Shown here piece after piece: positions 25,063 through 32,574 of a DNA stretch of 64,000 nt. The stretch is from the NCBI GenBank assembly GCA_030425395.1, contig JAUIAS010000003.1:1-64000 (forward strand). Reading direction: 5' to 3'. This DNA comes from Alphaproteobacteria bacterium (GTDB lineage Bacteria > Pseudomonadota > Alphaproteobacteria > Rhodobacterales > Rhodobacteraceae). The notes under the pieces were generated by a model that saw nothing but the letters and a program-made list of their open reading frames with translations, made no database searches and was not told where the DNA came from. Positions within the stretch are counted from its first letter, which is position 1; each line of letters starts with the position of its first letter. The position numbers were made by a program, and so were the translations under genes.

Positions 25063-26178
25063 TTACTGGTTGATCGCCACGCCATACCCCACGGCACCGG
25101 CAATGCACAGGCCAACCAAAACGGCGAATGCGATCTTGATCGCGGACCACGGCCGTTCCCCGCGCACTTGGCCGCTGCGTCCGTTGACAACAAAGCGGTA
25201 GCTCTTGCCGCGATATTTGTAGGCCGCGACCCAGACGGGCAGCAGAATGTGCTTGAAGGTCACATCCGACGTTTCGGTATCTACATCATGCACGCGCTGA
25301 CGGTCGCCGCCGATGTCAAACCGCACGTCACGTTCGATCACGCGGGCCATTTTTTCGCGTGCGACGGGGAATGCTTCGGGCAGCTCCACAGCATAGCCTT
25401 CGGCGCGGAACCCGGCCAGATATTGCGGTTGATAGGGTTCAAGCGCGGACAGATCCCAGGGTTCCAGCGCTTCGGTATAGCTCTGGGGCAGGCTGGTTGA
25501 GGCAAGCACCAGAACATCGTCAAAATCCCGCGCGACCCGACCGGAAACGGAACGCCACCGGATGCGTTGCACGCGTTGGGTTTCGGTCTTGCCATTGCGG
25601 GTCACGGTGCGGGTTTCATAATAGACAGTGCCCCGTTCACCGCGATATCGTGATCGGGTGCGCGCGTCGAACGTCCAGTAGGGAACATAGACGCCCTGCA
25701 TCTTGCGGCCCTTCCGGGCATATTCCTGAAGACCGTTGGGCGCGAACCACAGCCCGCCAAGCCAATCTGTCATTGCGTCGCGTGCGGCGCTTTCATCCAA
25801 TGCAAACGGCAAGACGCCGCGTGGTTTGATGTGGCGGTGTGTTCCGGTATCGACCACCACCGGCGTCGCGCAGAAGGGGCACTCTGTTGCGTGAATGGCG
25901 GTGTCGAATTCCACTTGGGCCCCGCAATTGGGGCAGGCGGACACGCGGGTTTCCTCGATTTCCTGCTGGGGCAGGGTGTTGGCGATTGCTGCGTTGAAAT
26001 CCAGTTCGCGCAGCGAGGTGCGCCCCCATGGACCCGAACCGTGATCAGATCCTTCGGCCACATGTCCGCAGAAGTCGCAGATCAGGCCGCCAGTCGCCGG
26101 GTCAAAGCGATAATCCGCGCCGCATTGCGCGCAAGGGAAGCGATGGGTTTCATCCGGCGCGGGATCTGTGTCGATCAT
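25063..26178 (-). CDS. Double zinc-ribbon protein with C-terminal membrane helix
   Basis: A 371-residue protein. Two zinc ribbons lie at the N-terminus: Cys16, 19, 34, 37 (CAQCG/CDFCG) and Cys82, 85, 100, 103 (CPNCG/CPFC). A middle region rich in aromatic residues (VYVPYWTFDART) and YKYRGKSYRFVVNGRSGQVRGERPW follows, ending in one helix at about 347-366 that anchors it to the inner membrane. The layout matches the 'TFIIB-type zinc ribbon' proteins that accompany SPFH/virion-core-like genes. It is divergent from the CZB gene (85 bp shared upstream region). The function is unknown, probably envelope stress. Confidence 0.82.
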   Translation of the reverse strand: MIDTDPAPDETHRFPCAQCGADYRFDPATGGLICDFCGHVAEGSDHGSGPWGRTSLRELDFNAAIANTLPQQEIEETRVSACPNCGAQVEFDTAIHATECPFCATPVVVDTGTHRHIKPRGVLPFALDESAARDAMTDWLGGLWFAPNGLQEYARKGRKMQGVYVPYWTFDARTRSRYRGERGTVYYETRTVTRNGKTETQRVQRIRWRSVSGRVARDFDDVLVLASTSLPQSYTEALEPWDLSALEPYQPQYLAGFRAEGYAVELPEAFPVAREKMARVIERDVRFDIGGDRQRVHDVDTETSDVTFKHILLPVWVAAYKYRGKSYRFVVNGRSGQVRGERPWSAIKIAFAVLVGLCIAGAVGYGVAINQ

Positions 26179-26263
26179 GATCGTCTCTTCTTTGAATCTC
26201 ATGCCTAACTTTTGGGTCAGGCCTGCCGTTCATGAAATCAGTAACTGCATCAGAGGTAAACCA

Positions 26264-26641
26264 ATGGCCGACACCGAATTCTACAACAGTATCAACGCCG
26301 CGATCGGAGCGCATGGGAAATGGAAGTTCCGTCTGCGTCAGGAAGTTGCACGCGGCACGGCGGGCGCGCTGGTGCAGGAAGCGGGCGATTATCATAGTTG
26401 CGCCTTCGGAACATGGTTGAAGGGGCTGACCGCATTCGAGAAAAGCCAACCCGAAGCGGTTGATGTGATCAAACTGCACCAGCAATTCCACGGTTGTGCC
26501 AGCCGGGTGGCCGCCGAAGCCGGCAAGGGCAACCCCGACAAGGCCGTTGCATTGATTGATGGTGAACTGTCGGACCTGTCCAAAAGCCTGACCAGCGCGA
26601 TGACCCGGTGGAAGCTCAAGACAATGGCAAACGCGGCCTGA
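26264..26641 (+). CDS. Stand-alone CZB (chemoreceptor zinc-binding) domain protein
   Basis: A 125-residue soluble protein made of a single CZB domain: His17, then Cys46 in C-A-F-G-T-W (consensus CxLGxW), His72 and His76. These four residues coordinate zinc in the family, which senses zinc or hypochlorous acid and is usually fused to chemoreceptors or diguanylate cyclases. Here it stands alone. AGAGG precedes the ATG at 26264. It faces the SPFH gene convergently (16 bp apart) and is divergent from the zinc-ribbon gene. Confidence 0.88.
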   Translation: MADTEFYNSINAAIGAHGKWKFRLRQEVARGTAGALVQEAGDYHSCAFGTWLKGLTAFEKSQPEAVDVIKLHQQFHGCASRVAAEAGKGNPDKAVALIDGELSDLSKSLTSAMTRWKLKTMANAA

Positions 26642-26657
26642 GGTCAGTTGCCTTTGC

Positions 26658-27776
26658 TCACCCCGTCGGCGGCGGCGGTGGGGGTGGGGGCGGCATGACC
26701 GTAAAGAGCCGTGCCAGTTCGGCCACGTCCTCAGCCCGTTGCCATCCGTCCTGACCAGCGGTCCAGACCAGCGTGTCGCGACCGAGGGTGCCTTCGGTCA
26801 CCATACGGCCAAGGCGCGCCTTGGAAAACGGCCCCTGCGTCGCGCCGTTCTCGGCCAGATGCCAGACCTTTTCCACTGGGGGCGGCGGCGGCGGTGGCGC
26901 AGCCTGTCGCGGGGCAGAGCCCCATGGGCCTGCCTGTGCTGCGGCCTGCTGGCCCATTTGCATCCCAAGACCGGCCCCAAGGCCGGTCTGAAGCGCCGCC
27001 GCACCGGCCCCGTCGCGACCGAGGGCCTCGGCGGTCTGGAATTGCATGTATTCCTGAAGGTTGCCGACCACACCCATCGAGGTGCGTTTGTCCATCACCG
27101 CCTCGACCGCCGCGGGCAGCGAGATATTCTCGACATAGAGTTCGGGCAGGCTCAGCCCGTATTCGGCGATGGTGGGGGCGATTTCATTCGCGATCAGCTT
27201 GCCCAACTCGCGCGTGTTTGCGGCCATATCCAGCACCGGAATACCCGATCCGGCGATCCCCCTTGAGAATTCCTGCACAATGATGTTCCGGATCTGGAAC
27301 GATATTTCGTCCATCGTGAATTCGCCATCGGTGCCCACGATTTCGGTCAGGAAGCGCGCCGCATCCGTCACCCGGACCGAATAGGTGCCAAAGGCACGCA
27401 GGCGCACCGGCCCGAATTCCGGATCGCGGCAGATGATCGGGTTCTTGGTGCCCCATTTGAGATTGTTGAAGCGGGTCGTGTTCACGAAATAGATTTCGGA
27501 CTTGAACGGGCTTTTGAACCCGTGGTCCCAGTGGTTCAGCGTGGTCAGGATAGGCATGTTGTTGGTCTCAAGCATGTAGAGACCGGGCGTGAATACATCG
27601 GCCAGCTGGCCTTCGTGAATGAATACGGCGGCCTGACCTTCGCGCACGGTCAGCTTGGCCCCGTATTTGATTTCATGGCCTTCGCGTTCGAAGCGCCAGA
27701 CAAGCGTGTCGCGCGTGTCATCGACCCAATGGATCACGTCGATGAACTGACCCGAAAGAAAATCGAAGATGCCCAT
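26658..27776 (-). CDS. SPFH-domain protein with poly-proline-flanked GYF_2 domain
   Basis: A 372-residue protein. Residues 1 to about 235 form a SPFH/virion-core-like (YdjI-type) domain beginning MGIFDFLSGQFIDVIHW. A Gly/Ala/Gln-rich stretch follows, then seven prolines (294-300), a GYF_2-type domain at 305-350 (VWHLAENGATQGPFSKARL, closing DGWQRAEDV), and nine prolines (362-370). SPFH proteins scaffold membrane microdomains; GYF domains bind proline-rich peptides. AGGA precedes the ATG. It is the last gene of the leftward set starting at 31005. Its placement with TelA and XpaC suggests a membrane-stress role. Confidence 0.88.
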   Translation of the reverse strand: MGIFDFLSGQFIDVIHWVDDTRDTLVWRFEREGHEIKYGAKLTVREGQAAVFIHEGQLADVFTPGLYMLETNNMPILTTLNHWDHGFKSPFKSEIYFVNTTRFNNLKWGTKNPIICRDPEFGPVRLRAFGTYSVRVTDAARFLTEIVGTDGEFTMDEISFQIRNIIVQEFSRGIAGSGIPVLDMAANTRELGKLIANEIAPTIAEYGLSLPELYVENISLPAAVEAVMDKRTSMGVVGNLQEYMQFQTAEALGRDGAGAAALQTGLGAGLGMQMGQQAAAQAGPWGSAPRQAAPPPPPPPVEKVWHLAENGATQGPFSKARLGRMVTEGTLGRDTLVWTAGQDGWQRAEDVAELARLFTVMPPPPPPPPPTG

Positions 27777-27804
27777 TCCTGTTATTCCTCGTCTGAGGCC
27801 GGGG

Positions 27805-28800
27805 TCAGAGATCCTGCCCGGCAAGTTCGCCCGCGATGACCCGCACGATCGGGCGCGCCTGTTCCAGCGTCATGCCGGGATAAAGGCGCGGATCGTAAAG
27901 GATGCGCAGAAGGTTTTCGTCATGGCTGGTCAACAGTGCGAATTCGTCATCGTCGTTAAAGATCGACGGGCGCACACGCGGATCGTCATTGGCAAGGCCA
28001 AGGCCCTGCGCCATTTCCTCGTGCACACAACTGAGCCGCACAAGGTCGGGGTGTTCGGCACGCACAAGAGCGATTGCCTTGGAATAGGTGTTGGGCTGCC
28101 CGTTGGGCGAGGACGCCACGACGAGGCAATAGATCGACCGGGGCAGATTGCGGAAGATATCCAGCATGTCCGGGCTGATGTCGGGAACCAGAACGCGCAG
28201 TTCGGCCAACAGCTGATCGTTGTCATCCTCGCCCATGAACAACACGTGAAAATTCGGGCGCACCGGCGACATGCTGATCGGATGGTTGGTGATGCTGGCG
28301 AGACGCGCGGCATAGTCGGAAACCATCGCGCGGTCCTTCAGGCGGGTTTCCTGAGGCACGCTGTTGCCAAATCCCACCGTCACGCGCACCGGGCGTTCCC
28401 AGCGCCGTAGCCGTCCGGCCTTGCCCCCGCGCAACGAAAGCCCGGCTCCGCGCGCGTATTCGTCATAAAAAGCGATGGTTTCGAAGTTGCGCGACAAGGT
28501 GTCGGCGTCATAGGGGGTATCCGGTCCGCCCCCATCGACCCGCATCAGCCCCTTGGCCAGAAGATTGGCCTGAACCCGTTCGTAATGACGCTGCAATTCG
28601 GCACTGCGCAGGGATCGAAACGGCGCATCGGATGGCGGCGCCGCGCGCGCCAGTTCGGGACGCCCGTTGGGTGGGAACATCCCGCTGTCGCACCCCGACA
28701 GGCCCAGCAGCGCCGTGGTTCCTGCAACGAGCAAGGCCGCCCCGCGCAGCAGACGGAGCGGTCGCGGATGTATCGCAGGATTTAGAATCGCGCGGACCAT
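27805..28800 (-). CDS. DUF2927-family lipoprotein
   Basis: A 331-residue protein with a lipoprotein signal: hydrophobic residues 15-36 and lipobox LSGC with Cys37. The body (RPVRVTVGFG, ARLASITNHPI, CLVVASSPNGQ, RLSCVHEEMAQGLGLAND) matches what I associate with DUF2927. The HEEMAQGLGL segment looks like a zinc-metallopeptidase HExxxxxxGL relative, so a protease-like fold is possible. The DUF2927 gene begins 3 bases after the TelA stop, so it is cotranscribed with it. It is expected in the periplasm or outer membrane. Confidence 0.82.
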   Translation of the reverse strand: MVRAILNPAIHPRPLRLLRGAALLVAGTTALLGLSGCDSGMFPPNGRPELARAAPPSDAPFRSLRSAELQRHYERVQANLLAKGLMRVDGGGPDTPYDADTLSRNFETIAFYDEYARGAGLSLRGGKAGRLRRWERPVRVTVGFGNSVPQETRLKDRAMVSDYAARLASITNHPISMSPVRPNFHVLFMGEDDNDQLLAELRVLVPDISPDMLDIFRNLPRSIYCLVVASSPNGQPNTYSKAIALVRAEHPDLVRLSCVHEEMAQGLGLANDDPRVRPSIFNDDDEFALLTSHDENLLRILYDPRLYPGMTLEQARPIVRVIAGELAGQDL

Positions 28801-28803
28801 GGC

Positions 28804-29994
28804 TCAGCCCGGAACGGAGGTGCCGGAATTGTCGCCGATGCCGTCCTTGCGCGCCTTGGCCGCAGCCAGCGTATCGCGCAATTCGCTTTCCATTTTCTTG
28901 AGTTCCTTTTCCGCTTCGGCACGGCGCGCCTTGCCTTGGTCGGCGATCTGGAGAGATTCCTCGATGGTGCCGACCAGATCGGCGTTGGCCTGTTTGACCG
29001 CCTCGATGTCAAACACGCCGCGTTCCATTTCCTCGCGGATCAGTCGGTTGCTGTCGCGCAGGTTCTTGGCGTTCGCGGTCAACAGTTCGTTGGTCAGGTC
29101 GTTGGCCTCGCGCACGGCGGCGGCGGCTTCGGCGCTGCGCTGGATGGTGACGGCCTGCGCCAGTTGGGTTTCCCAAAGCGGCACGGTATTGACCAGCGTC
29201 GAATTGATCTTGGTTACTAGGCTTTTGTCGTTTTCCTGCACAAGGCGGATCGAGGGCAGCGATTGCATTGTTACCTGACGGGTCAGCTTGATATCGTGCA
29301 CCCGGCGTTCCAGATCGTCGCGCGCGGCGCGCAGATCGCGCAATTCCTGCGCCTTCATCACCTGATCGGCCTCGGCGGCGGCTTTGACCTCTGCCTCTTT
29401 TGCAGGAATTTCCGTGCTGTCCAGATCTTTCAGCTTGGCTTCGCCGGCCGCGATATACAGCGCCAGTTCGTCATAGAAGCTCAGGGTTTTTTCATACAGA
29501 AGATCGAGAGATTTGATATCTTTCAACAGGGTGTGTTCATGGGTTTCAAGATCGGCCGTCACCTTGTCGATCTGGCTCTGAACCTCTTCGAAACGGGCGG
29601 TGAACTGGGCAAAGGGTGCGGCGCGGCCCAGCAGCTTTTCCCACCAGGACCGTTCGCGGCGCACGTCAAGTTCGCTGACCGAAAAGCCCCGGATCGTGGT
29701 CACGATATTGCGCAGGCTGTCCCCTGCCGGTCCCACGTCCTTGTTGCGCACATCGGCCAGCATGGCTTGGCTGATTGTCTGCAATTCGGCCTGTGCCGAC
29801 GATCCGAACGACACGATGGATTGCGTATCGGTCATGTCGATTTCGTCCATACGCTTGCGGATTTCTTCGCTGGCGTGGGGGCCTGCTGCCTCCAGCGAAA
29901 CCGTGTCGCGGGCGGGCTTGGGCAACACGACCGCGTTCAGCGCCTCAACATCGGACAGGGCGGCCTCGGCCTTTTTACGGGTATCATCAGACAT
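28804..29994 (-). CDS. TelA/KlaA-family toxic-anion-resistance protein
   Basis: A 396-residue soluble, strongly helical protein with long coiled-coil segments. Family-specific stretches include IVSFGSSAQAELQTISQAML, VGPAGDSLRNIVTTIRG near the N-terminus and the heptad-rich middle ending in VNTVPLWETQLAQAV. TelA proteins are linked to tellurite, colicin and membrane-stress tolerance; the mechanism is not known. GAGG lies ahead of the ATG. It follows the XpaC-like gene by 27 bp and precedes the DUF2927 gene by 3 bp. Confidence 0.93.
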   Translation of the reverse strand: MSDDTRKKAEAALSDVEALNAVVLPKPARDTVSLEAAGPHASEEIRKRMDEIDMTDTQSIVSFGSSAQAELQTISQAMLADVRNKDVGPAGDSLRNIVTTIRGFSVSELDVRRERSWWEKLLGRAAPFAQFTARFEEVQSQIDKVTADLETHEHTLLKDIKSLDLLYEKTLSFYDELALYIAAGEAKLKDLDSTEIPAKEAEVKAAAEADQVMKAQELRDLRAARDDLERRVHDIKLTRQVTMQSLPSIRLVQENDKSLVTKINSTLVNTVPLWETQLAQAVTIQRSAEAAAAVREANDLTNELLTANAKNLRDSNRLIREEMERGVFDIEAVKQANADLVGTIEESLQIADQGKARRAEAEKELKKMESELRDTLAAAKARKDGIGDNSGTSVPG

Positions 29995-30021
29995 GGGTCA
30001 TCCTCATTATTCCGGCACCTG

Positions 30022-30912
30022 TCACAGGCGCACCCCCTCGCGCTGCAAACGATCGCGCAGCACGTCTATTTCAACAGTCAGATCGGTGCGGTCCTCAAGC
30101 ATCATCTTGCGGGTCCGCGCCGCGTAATTCTGGTCCAGATCATCCAGCAAGGCCAGATAATCGGCGCGTGCCTGCGCATCCTGCGTGCGCGCATAAATGT
30201 CGGCAAACTTCACGGTCGCATCCCGCGCGCCCAGTAGATAAACGCCAAGAAACCGGCGCGCATTGGTCAGGTCGCGTGGGTCTTCCTCGACGGTTGTTAT
30301 CATGTCGCGCACGGTGCCTTGAAGGGCCGCGAGGCGGGCCTCGGCAGTGCGGTCGCCCGCGCGGCGTATTGCGTCACTCATGGCGCTCAGATGGGCCTCG
30401 GCCTCATCCACAACGCGGGCGACGCGATCCTGCTGGAAGCTGTCAACGCCCTCCATGCCTTTGTTGCGCAGAGGGTCCAGTCCGAACGCGGCGAGCGACA
30501 GACCGGTTGTCAGCATCCCTAACAGCAGCGGCGCGATCACGCCGGGATCGGTCTTGAAGGCGGCAATGGCGGTGCCTGCACCCAGCACGACAGACCCGGC
30601 GATCTTGCGCGGGAAAGCGGGCTTGCGGGCGACCTTGCGCGCCTCAAAGGCGGCTTCGGCGTGCAGACCTTCGCGCATCAGCCATGCCCCAAGCACCCAT
30701 ACAGCGGCTGCACCCACCGCAAGAGACAGGCCCAATGCGCCATCGTTGAAGGAGGTCGCCACCAGCGGAATCGCCGGAATGAACAAAACATTGGACCGCG
30801 CACCTGCCTTTTGCGGGCGCGCGCCCTTGTAGGCCCCCGAGATCGCGCTCCGGTCTCCTGCTTGCGGGGGCGGGGGTGACGGGCTGTGGGTGCCGCCATA
30901 GCGTTGCGCCAT
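30022..30912 (-). CDS. XpaC-like protein (5-bromo-4-chloroindolyl phosphate hydrolysis family)
   Basis: A 296-residue protein with an N-terminal cytosolic tail rich in Gly and Pro, two or three hydrophobic segments at about 40-80 and 105-145, and a C-terminal helical domain starting near SFQQDRVARVVDEAEAHLSAMSDAIRR. This arrangement matches XpaC, which is paired with TelA in many genomes. It starts 3 bases after the stop of a 29-aa membrane peptide and is followed by telA. The enzymatic name of the family is historical; a membrane-stress role with TelA is inferred. Confidence 0.85.
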   Translation of the reverse strand: MAQRYGGTHSPSPPPPQAGDRSAISGAYKGARPQKAGARSNVLFIPAIPLVATSFNDGALGLSLAVGAAAVWVLGAWLMREGLHAEAAFEARKVARKPAFPRKIAGSVVLGAGTAIAAFKTDPGVIAPLLLGMLTTGLSLAAFGLDPLRNKGMEGVDSFQQDRVARVVDEAEAHLSAMSDAIRRAGDRTAEARLAALQGTVRDMITTVEEDPRDLTNARRFLGVYLLGARDATVKFADIYARTQDAQARADYLALLDDLDQNYAARTRKMMLEDRTDLTVEIDVLRDRLQREGVRL

Positions 30913-30915
30913 CGC

Positions 30916-31005
30916 TCAGAGCCCCCCGATCCGGCCAGTGGCCACTCCGAAGAGCAGCACGATCAAAGCGGCATAAGACAGTTTCTGAAGGGCACGTCCC
31001 GACAT
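30916..31005 (-). CDS. Single-helix membrane micro-protein (29 aa)
   Basis: ATG at 31005 with GGAG 6 bases upstream, ending in TGA 3 bases before the XpaC-like start. The peptide has a basic start (MSGRALQKLSY) followed by one hydrophobic helix AALIVLLFGVATGRIGGL. Its position, ribosome binding site and coding bias support a real leader gene of the TelA/XpaC operon. It is too short for most gene finders. It may stabilise the XpaC-like membrane protein. Confidence 0.6.
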   Translation of the reverse strand: MSGRALQKLSYAALIVLLFGVATGRIGGL

Positions 31006-31106
31006 GGCGGCTCCGGTTCTTTGCGTTGCCTTGAAGGTAGGGGAAGCGCCGTCCGCTTGCTAGGGGTAACCGCCCGATTCGGTCAGGTTTCCCACGGCAG
31101 GCGGGG

Positions 31107-32057
31107 TTAACCGCCCCGTTTCGGCGGTTTGCCGCGCGGCTTGCCCTTGCCGGATGATGCACCCGGTGCCGGGCCGCTACGTCCTGCCCCAGGGTGCTTC
31201 GTGTCGCGTTTTGTGTCATGTTTGGCACCGGAACCCTGACCGGGCCCCTTGCCTCGGGGTCCGCCGGGCTTGCGTGACCGATTGACCACCGGCTTGCCTG
31301 TGGGGCGCGGAGTTTCCTCGGCCGGGGCCTCCAGCCCCAGCTGATCGCGCATCACCTTGCGCCTTACTTCTTCGACCTCGCCTTCCTTGAGCTGACCCAG
31401 CTGGAACGGCCCGTAAGAGACGCGGATCAGGCGGTTGACCGCAAATCCCAGATCCTCGATCGCGCGGCGGATCTCGCGATTCTTGCCTTCACGCAGGCCG
31501 ATCGTCAGCCAGGCGTTTGCGCCTTGCTGTCGATCAAGGGTGACGGTCATTGGCTGAAACCGTTCCCCCCCGATCACCAGCCCTTTGCGAAGCGGTGCAA
31601 AATCTTCGTCCTTGGGGCGGCCATTGATCCGGACACGGTATCGCCGCAACCATCCGGTTGAGGGCAATTCCAGCTTGCGCTTGATGCCGCCGTCATTGGT
31701 CAGCAGCAAAAGCCCCTCGGAATTGATATCCAGACGCCCGACACTGATCACGCGGGGCATGTCTTCGGGAAGCGAGTCGAAAACCGTGGAGCGGCCCTTT
31801 TCGTCGCGCGCCGAAGTCACAAGGCCGATGGGCTTGTGATACAGCCAGAGACGTGGCGGTTCAGGTTCGGACAACGGTTTGTCGTCCACCATGATGGTGT
31901 CGGTCGCGATGACGTTCAGCGCGGGGCTGTCGATGCGCTTGCCATTGACCGAAACGCGCCCGGCCTCGATCATGCGTTCGGCCTCGCGGCGCGATGCAAC
32001 GCCGGCGCGCGCCAGAACCTTGGCGATGCGATCGCCGTCTTTTTTCTCAGTGTCCAT
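31107..32057 (-). CDS. RluB-type 23S rRNA pseudouridine synthase
   Basis: A 316-residue enzyme that isomerises uridine in large-subunit rRNA. Residues about 8-55 are the S4 RNA-binding domain (RIAKVLARAGVASRREAERMI). The catalytic motif GRLDINSEGLLLLTND follows near 95-110, with the Asp nucleophile. The C-terminal 70 residues are a basic Lys/Gly/Pro-rich tail typical of alphaproteobacterial RluB. I used the ATG at 32057; one three codons earlier is possible. Divergent from tadA, with 61 bp between. Confidence 0.9.
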   Translation of the reverse strand: MDTEKKDGDRIAKVLARAGVASRREAERMIEAGRVSVNGKRIDSPALNVIATDTIMVDDKPLSEPEPPRLWLYHKPIGLVTSARDEKGRSTVFDSLPEDMPRVISVGRLDINSEGLLLLTNDGGIKRKLELPSTGWLRRYRVRINGRPKDEDFAPLRKGLVIGGERFQPMTVTLDRQQGANAWLTIGLREGKNREIRRAIEDLGFAVNRLIRVSYGPFQLGQLKEGEVEEVRRKVMRDQLGLEAPAEETPRPTGKPVVNRSRKPGGPRGKGPGQGSGAKHDTKRDTKHPGAGRSGPAPGASSGKGKPRGKPPKRGG

Positions 32058-32118
32058 GCCCTGCACTTATCCCATCGCCCCGCCTTGCGAAAGCGGCCTT
32101 TGCGCGGCAGGGTGAACC

Positions 32119-32574
32119 ATGGCTTTCAGATCGCATATGGACGTGGCGCTGGACGAAGCGCGCGCCGCCGCCGCACGCGGGGAAGTGCCTGTGGGCGCGG
32201 TTGTCGTTGACCCGAAAGGCAATGTGGTCGCACGTGCCGGGAACCGAACGCGGGAGGATAACGACCCTTCGGCCCATGCCGAGATGCTGGCCATCCGTGC
32301 GGCCTGTGCGGCTCTGGGCCAAGAGAGGCTGGCGGGATTTGACCTTTATGTGACGCTGGAACCCTGCGCGATGTGCGCGGGCGTGATCGCCGCGGCCCGC
32401 ATCGCGCGGCTCTACTATGCGGCCAGCGATCCCAAATCCGGCGGCGTGGCGCATGGCGCGCGCGTCTTTGCCCATCCCCAGTCCCATCACCGCCCCGAAA
32501 TCTACGACGGATTGGCCGAGGCAGACGCGGAAGGCTTGCTCAGAACCTTTTTCGCTGCGCGACGCGGTAAATGA
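32119..32574 (+). CDS. tadA: tRNA-specific adenosine deaminase
   Basis: A 151-residue zinc enzyme that converts adenosine 34 of tRNA-Arg(ACG) to inosine. Zinc ligands and proton shuttle are visible: His53 and Glu55 in HAE, and Cys83 and Cys86 in PCAMCAG. The length matches TadA. It is divergent from the pseudouridine synthase, another RNA-modification gene. A recurrent intergenic repeat begins right after its stop. Confidence 0.95.
   Translation: MAFRSHMDVALDEARAAAARGEVPVGAVVVDPKGNVVARAGNRTREDNDPSAHAEMLAIRAACAALGQERLAGFDLYVTLEPCAMCAGVIAAARIARLYYAASDPKSGGVAHGARVFAHPQSHHRPEIYDGLAEADAEGLLRTFFAARRGK

Follow-up and report, generated by a model that had tools for sequence, protein, structure and literature searches.

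Results

Layout of the gene block

The window analysed here is a stretch of 64,000 nucleotides from a contig of the Rhodobacteraceae (JAUIAS010000003.1, positions 1 to 64,000). Between positions 25063 and 31005 it carries six genes on the minus strand, transcribed in the order micro-protein, XpaC, TelA, DUF2927, SPFH-GYF_2 and a two-zinc-ribbon protein (ZnR), together with a plus-strand CZB gene; a promoter-like element lies upstream of the micro-protein:

25063..26178, minus strand: ZnR, two-zinc-ribbon protein whose single TM helix is C-terminal (residues 351-369); constant companion of the SPFH gene
26261..26641, plus strand: CZB, stand-alone zinc-binding protein recognised by the CZB profile, in the variable slot between SPFH and ZnR
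26658..27776, minus strand: SPFH (Band_7_1) protein with a C-terminal GYF_2 domain and a conserved proline-rich tail; without TM helix
27805..28800, minus strand: DUF2927 lipoprotein, with a predicted metzincin/MMP-like fold whose zinc ligands are replaced
28804..29994, minus strand: TelA (PF05816), cytosolic, predicted to be all-helical with very long helices
30022..30912, minus strand: XpaC family membrane protein (Halogen_Hydrol, PF10112) with two TM-like stretches
30916..31005, minus strand: micro-protein of 29 aa, single-span membrane protein, MSGRALQKLSYAALIVLLFGVATGRIGGL; its stop lies 3 nt before xpaC
about 31031..31066, minus strand: promoter-like element, operon-specific, TTACCCCTAGCAAG...CCCCTACCTT

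All of the domains named in the sequence-only reading that preceded this analysis (zinc-ribbon, CZB, SPFH with GYF_2, DUF2927, TelA and XpaC) were borne out by Pfam. TelA (PF05816; 4.7e-106, 355 bits against a cut-off of 30), XpaC (PF10112; 3.5e-26, 92.8 bits against 29.8) and CZB (8.9e-8, 32.8 bits against 29.4) are members of their families; the DUF2927 profile matched at 4.9e-62, the SPFH protein matched Band_7_1 (1.3e-100, 335.7 bits) and GYF_2 (1.9e-20, residues 305-354), and ZnR matched Zn_ribbon_RRN7 (8.6e-9).

The minus-strand coordinates also agree with the short gaps reported in that reading (3, 3, 27 and 28 nt), which fall between micro-protein and XpaC (3 nt), XpaC and TelA (27 nt), TelA and DUF2927 (3 nt), and DUF2927 and SPFH (28 nt). 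The further claim, that seven genes stand in tight order, survives only in part: There are six minus-strand genes, five of them tightly spaced, but CZB is on the opposite strand, and SPFH and ZnR are 479 nt apart in the window because CZB is inserted between them, convergent with SPFH and divergent from ZnR. With CZB on the plus strand inside this gap, the proposed seven-gene block is therefore six genes and a passenger. Its membership in the system was likewise not borne out by comparison with relatives, in which CZB was found at 6 of about 144 loci, each time on the opposite strand in the SPFH-ZnR slot. In 80 of the 144 loci this slot measures less than 250 nt; elsewhere it holds unrelated genes. 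We rejected CZB as a component on the grounds of its opposite strand and rarity; it is a passenger, outside the conserved system.

Conservation of the operon

To define the conserved block, regions of 17-18 kb around TelA were taken from 63 other genomes of the family and from more distant ones, and these loci were searched first with the window proteins and, in a second round, with profiles made from the resulting matches. Within the family, TelA itself is present in 258 of 295 genera; of 289 genomes sampled from the whole class, 28 have it, 25 of them above the cut-off. In all 64 sampled family loci, the window included, XpaC, TelA, SPFH and ZnR occur together (ZnR is inverted in one), and DUF2927 lies between TelA and SPFH in 61; the other three have the four-gene core XpaC-TelA-SPFH-ZnR without DUF2927, as do four genomes (L049, L050, L051 and L057) from three other alphaproteobacterial families. 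At L095 and L143, both operons without DUF2927, a gap of about 1.1 kb takes its place and possibly holds another gene.

When named genomes were scanned with the SPFH alignment, 80 loci were recovered, nearly all from named Rhodobacteraceae (genera include Sulfitobacter, Roseobacter, Salipiger, Shimia and Roseovarius), and all five genes were present in 73. Six of the other seven were truncated by a contig end, leaving Rhodosalinus halophilus (L200), which has SPFH-ZnR only, as the sole other exception. The SPFH-ZnR pair also stands alone on a Vibrio coralliilyticus plasmid (L262), its second gene matching the ZnR profile at 1.5e-114. On Paracoccus plasmids the set is TelA-DUF2927-SPFH-ZnR, and neither XpaC nor the micro-protein was detected. 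The pair on the Vibrio plasmid adjoins genes with a TIR domain and a TRAFs-binding domain, possibly a defence neighbourhood.

Co-occurrence across 289 evenly sampled genomes of the class, calculated with phylogeny ignored, links XpaC to TelA (17 of 17 XpaC genomes; Fisher p 9e-22) and SPFH to TelA (12 of 13 SPFH genomes; Fisher p about 1e-13) far beyond chance, DUF2927 being a much looser associate (p 0.04). This SPFH was missing from 13 of the 25 TelA-bearing class genomes. The idea that the genes form one system thus stood up to comparison: Conservation is not limited to close relatives, the order being kept in 64 of 64 family loci and in three other families. The block, minus CZB, is a real operon, and it is almost always kept together in marine Rhodobacteraceae.

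Two open reading frames upstream also keep their position in most genomes of the family: a 319-aa frame at 31107-32066 (minus strand) that by eye resembles RsuA/RluB pseudouridine synthases, and a 151-aa frame at 32119-32574 (plus strand) that by eye resembles TadA deaminases.

A promoter-like element upstream of the micro-protein

Upstream of the micro ORF lies an element with the consensus CTTCCCCCTAGCAAG-N-ATCnCCTAAGTTt; its CTTCCCCCTAGCAAG is followed at a fixed distance by CCTAAGTT, a -10-like box. Its 10-nt core, TTCCCCCTAG, was found with at most one mismatch in 46 of 115 loci (1.0 expected from shuffles), and the spacing from core to CCTAAGTT is identical in 40 of these 46; the window's own copy is less perfect. 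In 10 of 80 genomes the exact 14-mer of the element is present as a single copy, and in nine of these ten, with the TelA position listed, it lies about 1.2 kb upstream of telA, at the operon. Because the exact 14-mer is single in each genome, the search for it across the 80 genomes found no wider regulon. Patterns for RpoH, RpoE, EcfG and sigma-70 showed no clear enrichment upstream of the operon. As a candidate promoter, the element supports the view that the operon would be one transcription unit.

The micro-protein

The 29-aa ORF at 30916-31005, proposed in the sequence-only reading, exists and is conserved in relatives. Homologues at E<=1e-3 were found in 117 of 147 loci with XpaC and TelA, a count that is not independent of the profile, whose 17 seeds came from the same loci; the codon test is independent of it. 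They are usually 27 or 29 aa long and share the pattern LQKLA[FY]..LL....G...GG, with no family match in Pfam or NCBIfam. Their stop codon mostly overlaps the xpaC start by 1 or 4 nt, or lies 1-5 nt before it. Among pairs more than 70% identical, pN/pS is 0.27-0.34 (pS 0.52-0.55, pN 0.15-0.18); in the other two frames pN/pS exceeds 1, and third codon positions are the most variable. The micro-protein is under purifying selection. A candidate second small ORF upstream of it in relatives proved to be the end of TerC.

XpaC, TelA and the SPFH protein

The XpaC N-terminus reads MA[QK][RK][YF]GGK[YF]SP, and these ten residues (30883-30912, minus strand) are almost invariant in the family, while the linker that follows is variable; the first ten residues are likely to be a docking motif, judging from this pattern. 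A proline-rich stretch of the window XpaC was considered as a conserved GYF ligand and rejected, a comparable stretch being present in only 46 of 141 relatives. For TelA, an ESCRT-III/PspA-like fold was considered and set aside, the all-helical model being too weak (pLDDT 69) and its fold matches non-significant, at the noise level of helical bundles, with no PspA chain among the matches listed.

Having no TM-like stretch, the SPFH protein agrees with YdjI-like proteins in being a Band_7_1 protein without an N-terminal TM helix. The C-terminal zinc ribbon, also a YdjI-like trait, is absent from it, with GYF_2 at 305-354 instead, and this tail matches by sequence the solved GYF domain 7z3c (Adventurous gliding motility protein X).

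The DUF2927 lipoprotein

A structure model of DUF2927 built from 42 aligned sequences (pLDDT 87.7) is predicted to have a metzincin fold: VIA-align placed it with metzincins/MMPs at Z 11.5 and rmsd 2.8 over 150 residues, the best 50 rows all being MMP-like, and the best PDB matches in Foldseek were matrix metalloproteinases (E 0.008, weak alone). Its active-site helix, E261 E262 xx Q265 xx G268 xx N271 D272, is in register with HExxHxxGxxH. DUF2927 shares with metzincins and matrix metalloproteinases the predicted fold, the position of the catalytic Glu and the turn Gly, but has EExxQxxGxxN in place of HExxHxxGxxH. The segment HEEMAQGLGLAND, previously described as HEExxxGL-like, is accordingly a degenerate metzincin motif and not HExxH.

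In place of the zinc motif HExxHxxGxxH, nearly all of the 138 operon members have EExxQxxGxxN(D) (130 in the form H-E-E..Q..G..N-D), and the Glu at the catalytic position, the turn Gly and the replacing E/Q/N(D) are invariant in the 42 aligned sequences. Remote DUF2927 proteins (L246-L249) align with HExxHxxGxxH intact, all three histidines kept. On the strength of the model and alignment, the operon protein would be a pseudo-metzincin or have an altered metal site, and probably has no zinc site. Its lipobox, LSGC, occupies residues 34-37 (cysteine 37); a lipobox-like pattern is found in 121 of the 138 operon members, and D/E at +2 in 63. The genome encodes another DUF2927 protein away from the operon (G000:C6:5163-5762, L231), and its motif is likewise of the EExxQxxGxxN type.

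TerC and PspA

A TerC gene (Pfam 7.8e-36) lies directly upstream of the micro ORF, on the same strand, in 34 of 141 operon loci (L172, L214, L100, L159 and about 30 more; three further examples were seen by coordinates); the window genome gave no TerC match. Nor did its 98% complete assembly give a match to PspA_IM30, so that the operon does not qualify as a PSP system, and PspA matches in other genomes of the family were only weak, in 3 of 12. A defence-system reading of the operon was rejected, with no PADLOC match.

Discussion

Several parts of this operon have counterparts in known systems. By domain type, it shares with the B. subtilis pspA-ydjG-ydjH-ydjI operon a Band_7_1 SPFH protein without a TM helix (a family that forms rings in B. 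subtilis) and a two-zinc-ribbon membrane protein, but it has TelA and XpaC instead of PspA and YdjH, and its SPFH protein, unlike YdjI, ends in GYF_2 and not in a zinc ribbon. The XpaC and TelA gene pair is that of B. subtilis xpaC-yaaN and Listeria lmo1966-lmo1967, here joined with a micro-protein, a DUF2927 lipoprotein, SPFH and ZnR. The B. subtilis yceC-H operon, whose YceH we take to be a TelA homologue, has a TerC protein (MeeF/YceF) near TelA, as do the 34 TerC-bearing loci, whereas TerC gave no match in the window genome.

These systems have been tied to the envelope in several ways. In B. subtilis, pspA-ydjGHI, xpaC-yaaN and yceC-H all belong to the sigma-W regulon (PMC3498285), and PspA is brought to the membrane by YdjI, an SPFH protein, with YdjG/H (PMC8581546). 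In Listeria, mutation of telA increases sensitivity to nisin and tellurite (PMC12791056); xpaC belongs to the LiaR/CesSR envelope responses and goes up in E. faecium when LiaR is activated (PMC10269926); and exported enzymes are metalated by TerC proteins (PMC10550928). A survey of PSP partners named associations with band-7, zinc-ribbon and TPM proteins and did not name TelA or XpaC (PMC11237479).

Because counterparts of the B. subtilis, Listeria and TerC modules are gathered in it, we read the operon as encoding one envelope-stress complex: The six minus-strand genes probably constitute a single operon for a complex that maintains the inner membrane and acts under stress, and the best reading of its make-up is that it corresponds, without PspA, to the Bacillus sigma-W modules (xpaC-yaaN, yceC-H and pspA-ydjGHI). 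A role in membrane sensing and repair is plausible, given what has been published on XpaC, TelA, TerC and YdjI. In such a complex, the SPFH protein would oligomerise beneath the membrane, its GYF domain binding proline-rich tails, and would be tethered by the tail-anchored ZnR, much as YdjG/H may serve YdjI in B. subtilis. XpaC would provide a platform in the membrane to which the long, helical TelA is recruited; the micro-protein would bind XpaC there, as a small subunit with a regulatory or stabilising role, and TelA and XpaC would perform the job that PspA has in operons of the ydj type. In the periplasm, the DUF2927 lipoprotein, as a catalytically dead metzincin, could bind a peptide or envelope ligand and report the state of the envelope. 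The most specific form of this model, a PspA-independent envelope-repair machine in which TelA/XpaC replace PspA on a YdjI-like SPFH/ZnR scaffold, gated by the 27-29-aa micro-protein and with the pseudo-metzincin lipoprotein as periplasmic sensor, is a speculative proposal that we would advance only tentatively.

The complex may be modular, since SPFH-ZnR occurs alone on the Vibrio plasmid and in Rhodosalinus, TelA occurs without this SPFH in 13 of the 25 TelA-bearing class genomes, and the Paracoccus plasmids gave no match to XpaC or the micro-protein. The main rival explanation takes this separability further, holding that two independent modules are co-expressed from a shared promoter without forming a single complex: (TerC)-micro-XpaC-TelA would act in extracytoplasmic metal or toxic-anion homeostasis, and SPFH-ZnR would be a general membrane scaffold. 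Besides the solitary SPFH-ZnR pairs and the 13 class genomes with XpaC-TelA or TelA but without this SPFH, the division of the same parts among separate sigma-W operons in B. subtilis (PMC3498285) and the metalation of exported enzymes by TerC proteins (PMC10550928) speak for it; however, both modules are kept in one order in every sampled family locus, and that order recurs in other families, and we regard this explanation as rather unlikely.

Narrower alternatives concern individual components. The micro ORF could be a mere translational-coupling leader for xpaC, encoding a functionless peptide, as the -1 and -4 overlaps or 1-5 nt distances in most loci would suggest; but because coupling alone needs no particular residues, purifying selection at the amino-acid level (in-frame against out-of-frame pN/pS) and the conserved length classes and sequence pattern count against a pure leader, which we consider improbable. 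We give similarly little credence to the operon DUF2927 being an active metalloprotease that uses E/Q/N for His to hold a different metal, Mn or Ca, which TerC might load: The metzincin fold, the invariance of the catalytic Glu, turn Gly and replacing residues, and the frequent adjacency of TerC fit such an enzyme, but all three canonical zinc ligands are replaced and DUF2927 is kept in the window genome, which has no TerC match. That CZB supplies a zinc or hypochlorite input to the system is hardly credible: It is CZB-like and sits between SPFH and ZnR, but its strand, its rarity and the short or otherwise occupied slot in relatives all speak against it.

The micro-protein represents a new, conserved family of small proteins. 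For DUF2927 there is now a predicted fold, and its members divide into those that bear HExxH and those with swapped ligands. Little is understood about the widespread TelA and XpaC proteins, and the label 'toxic anion resistance' probably misleads. Their presence with SPFH, ZnR and often TerC in a fixed-order operon allows what they do together to be tested directly in tractable members of the Rhodobacteraceae.
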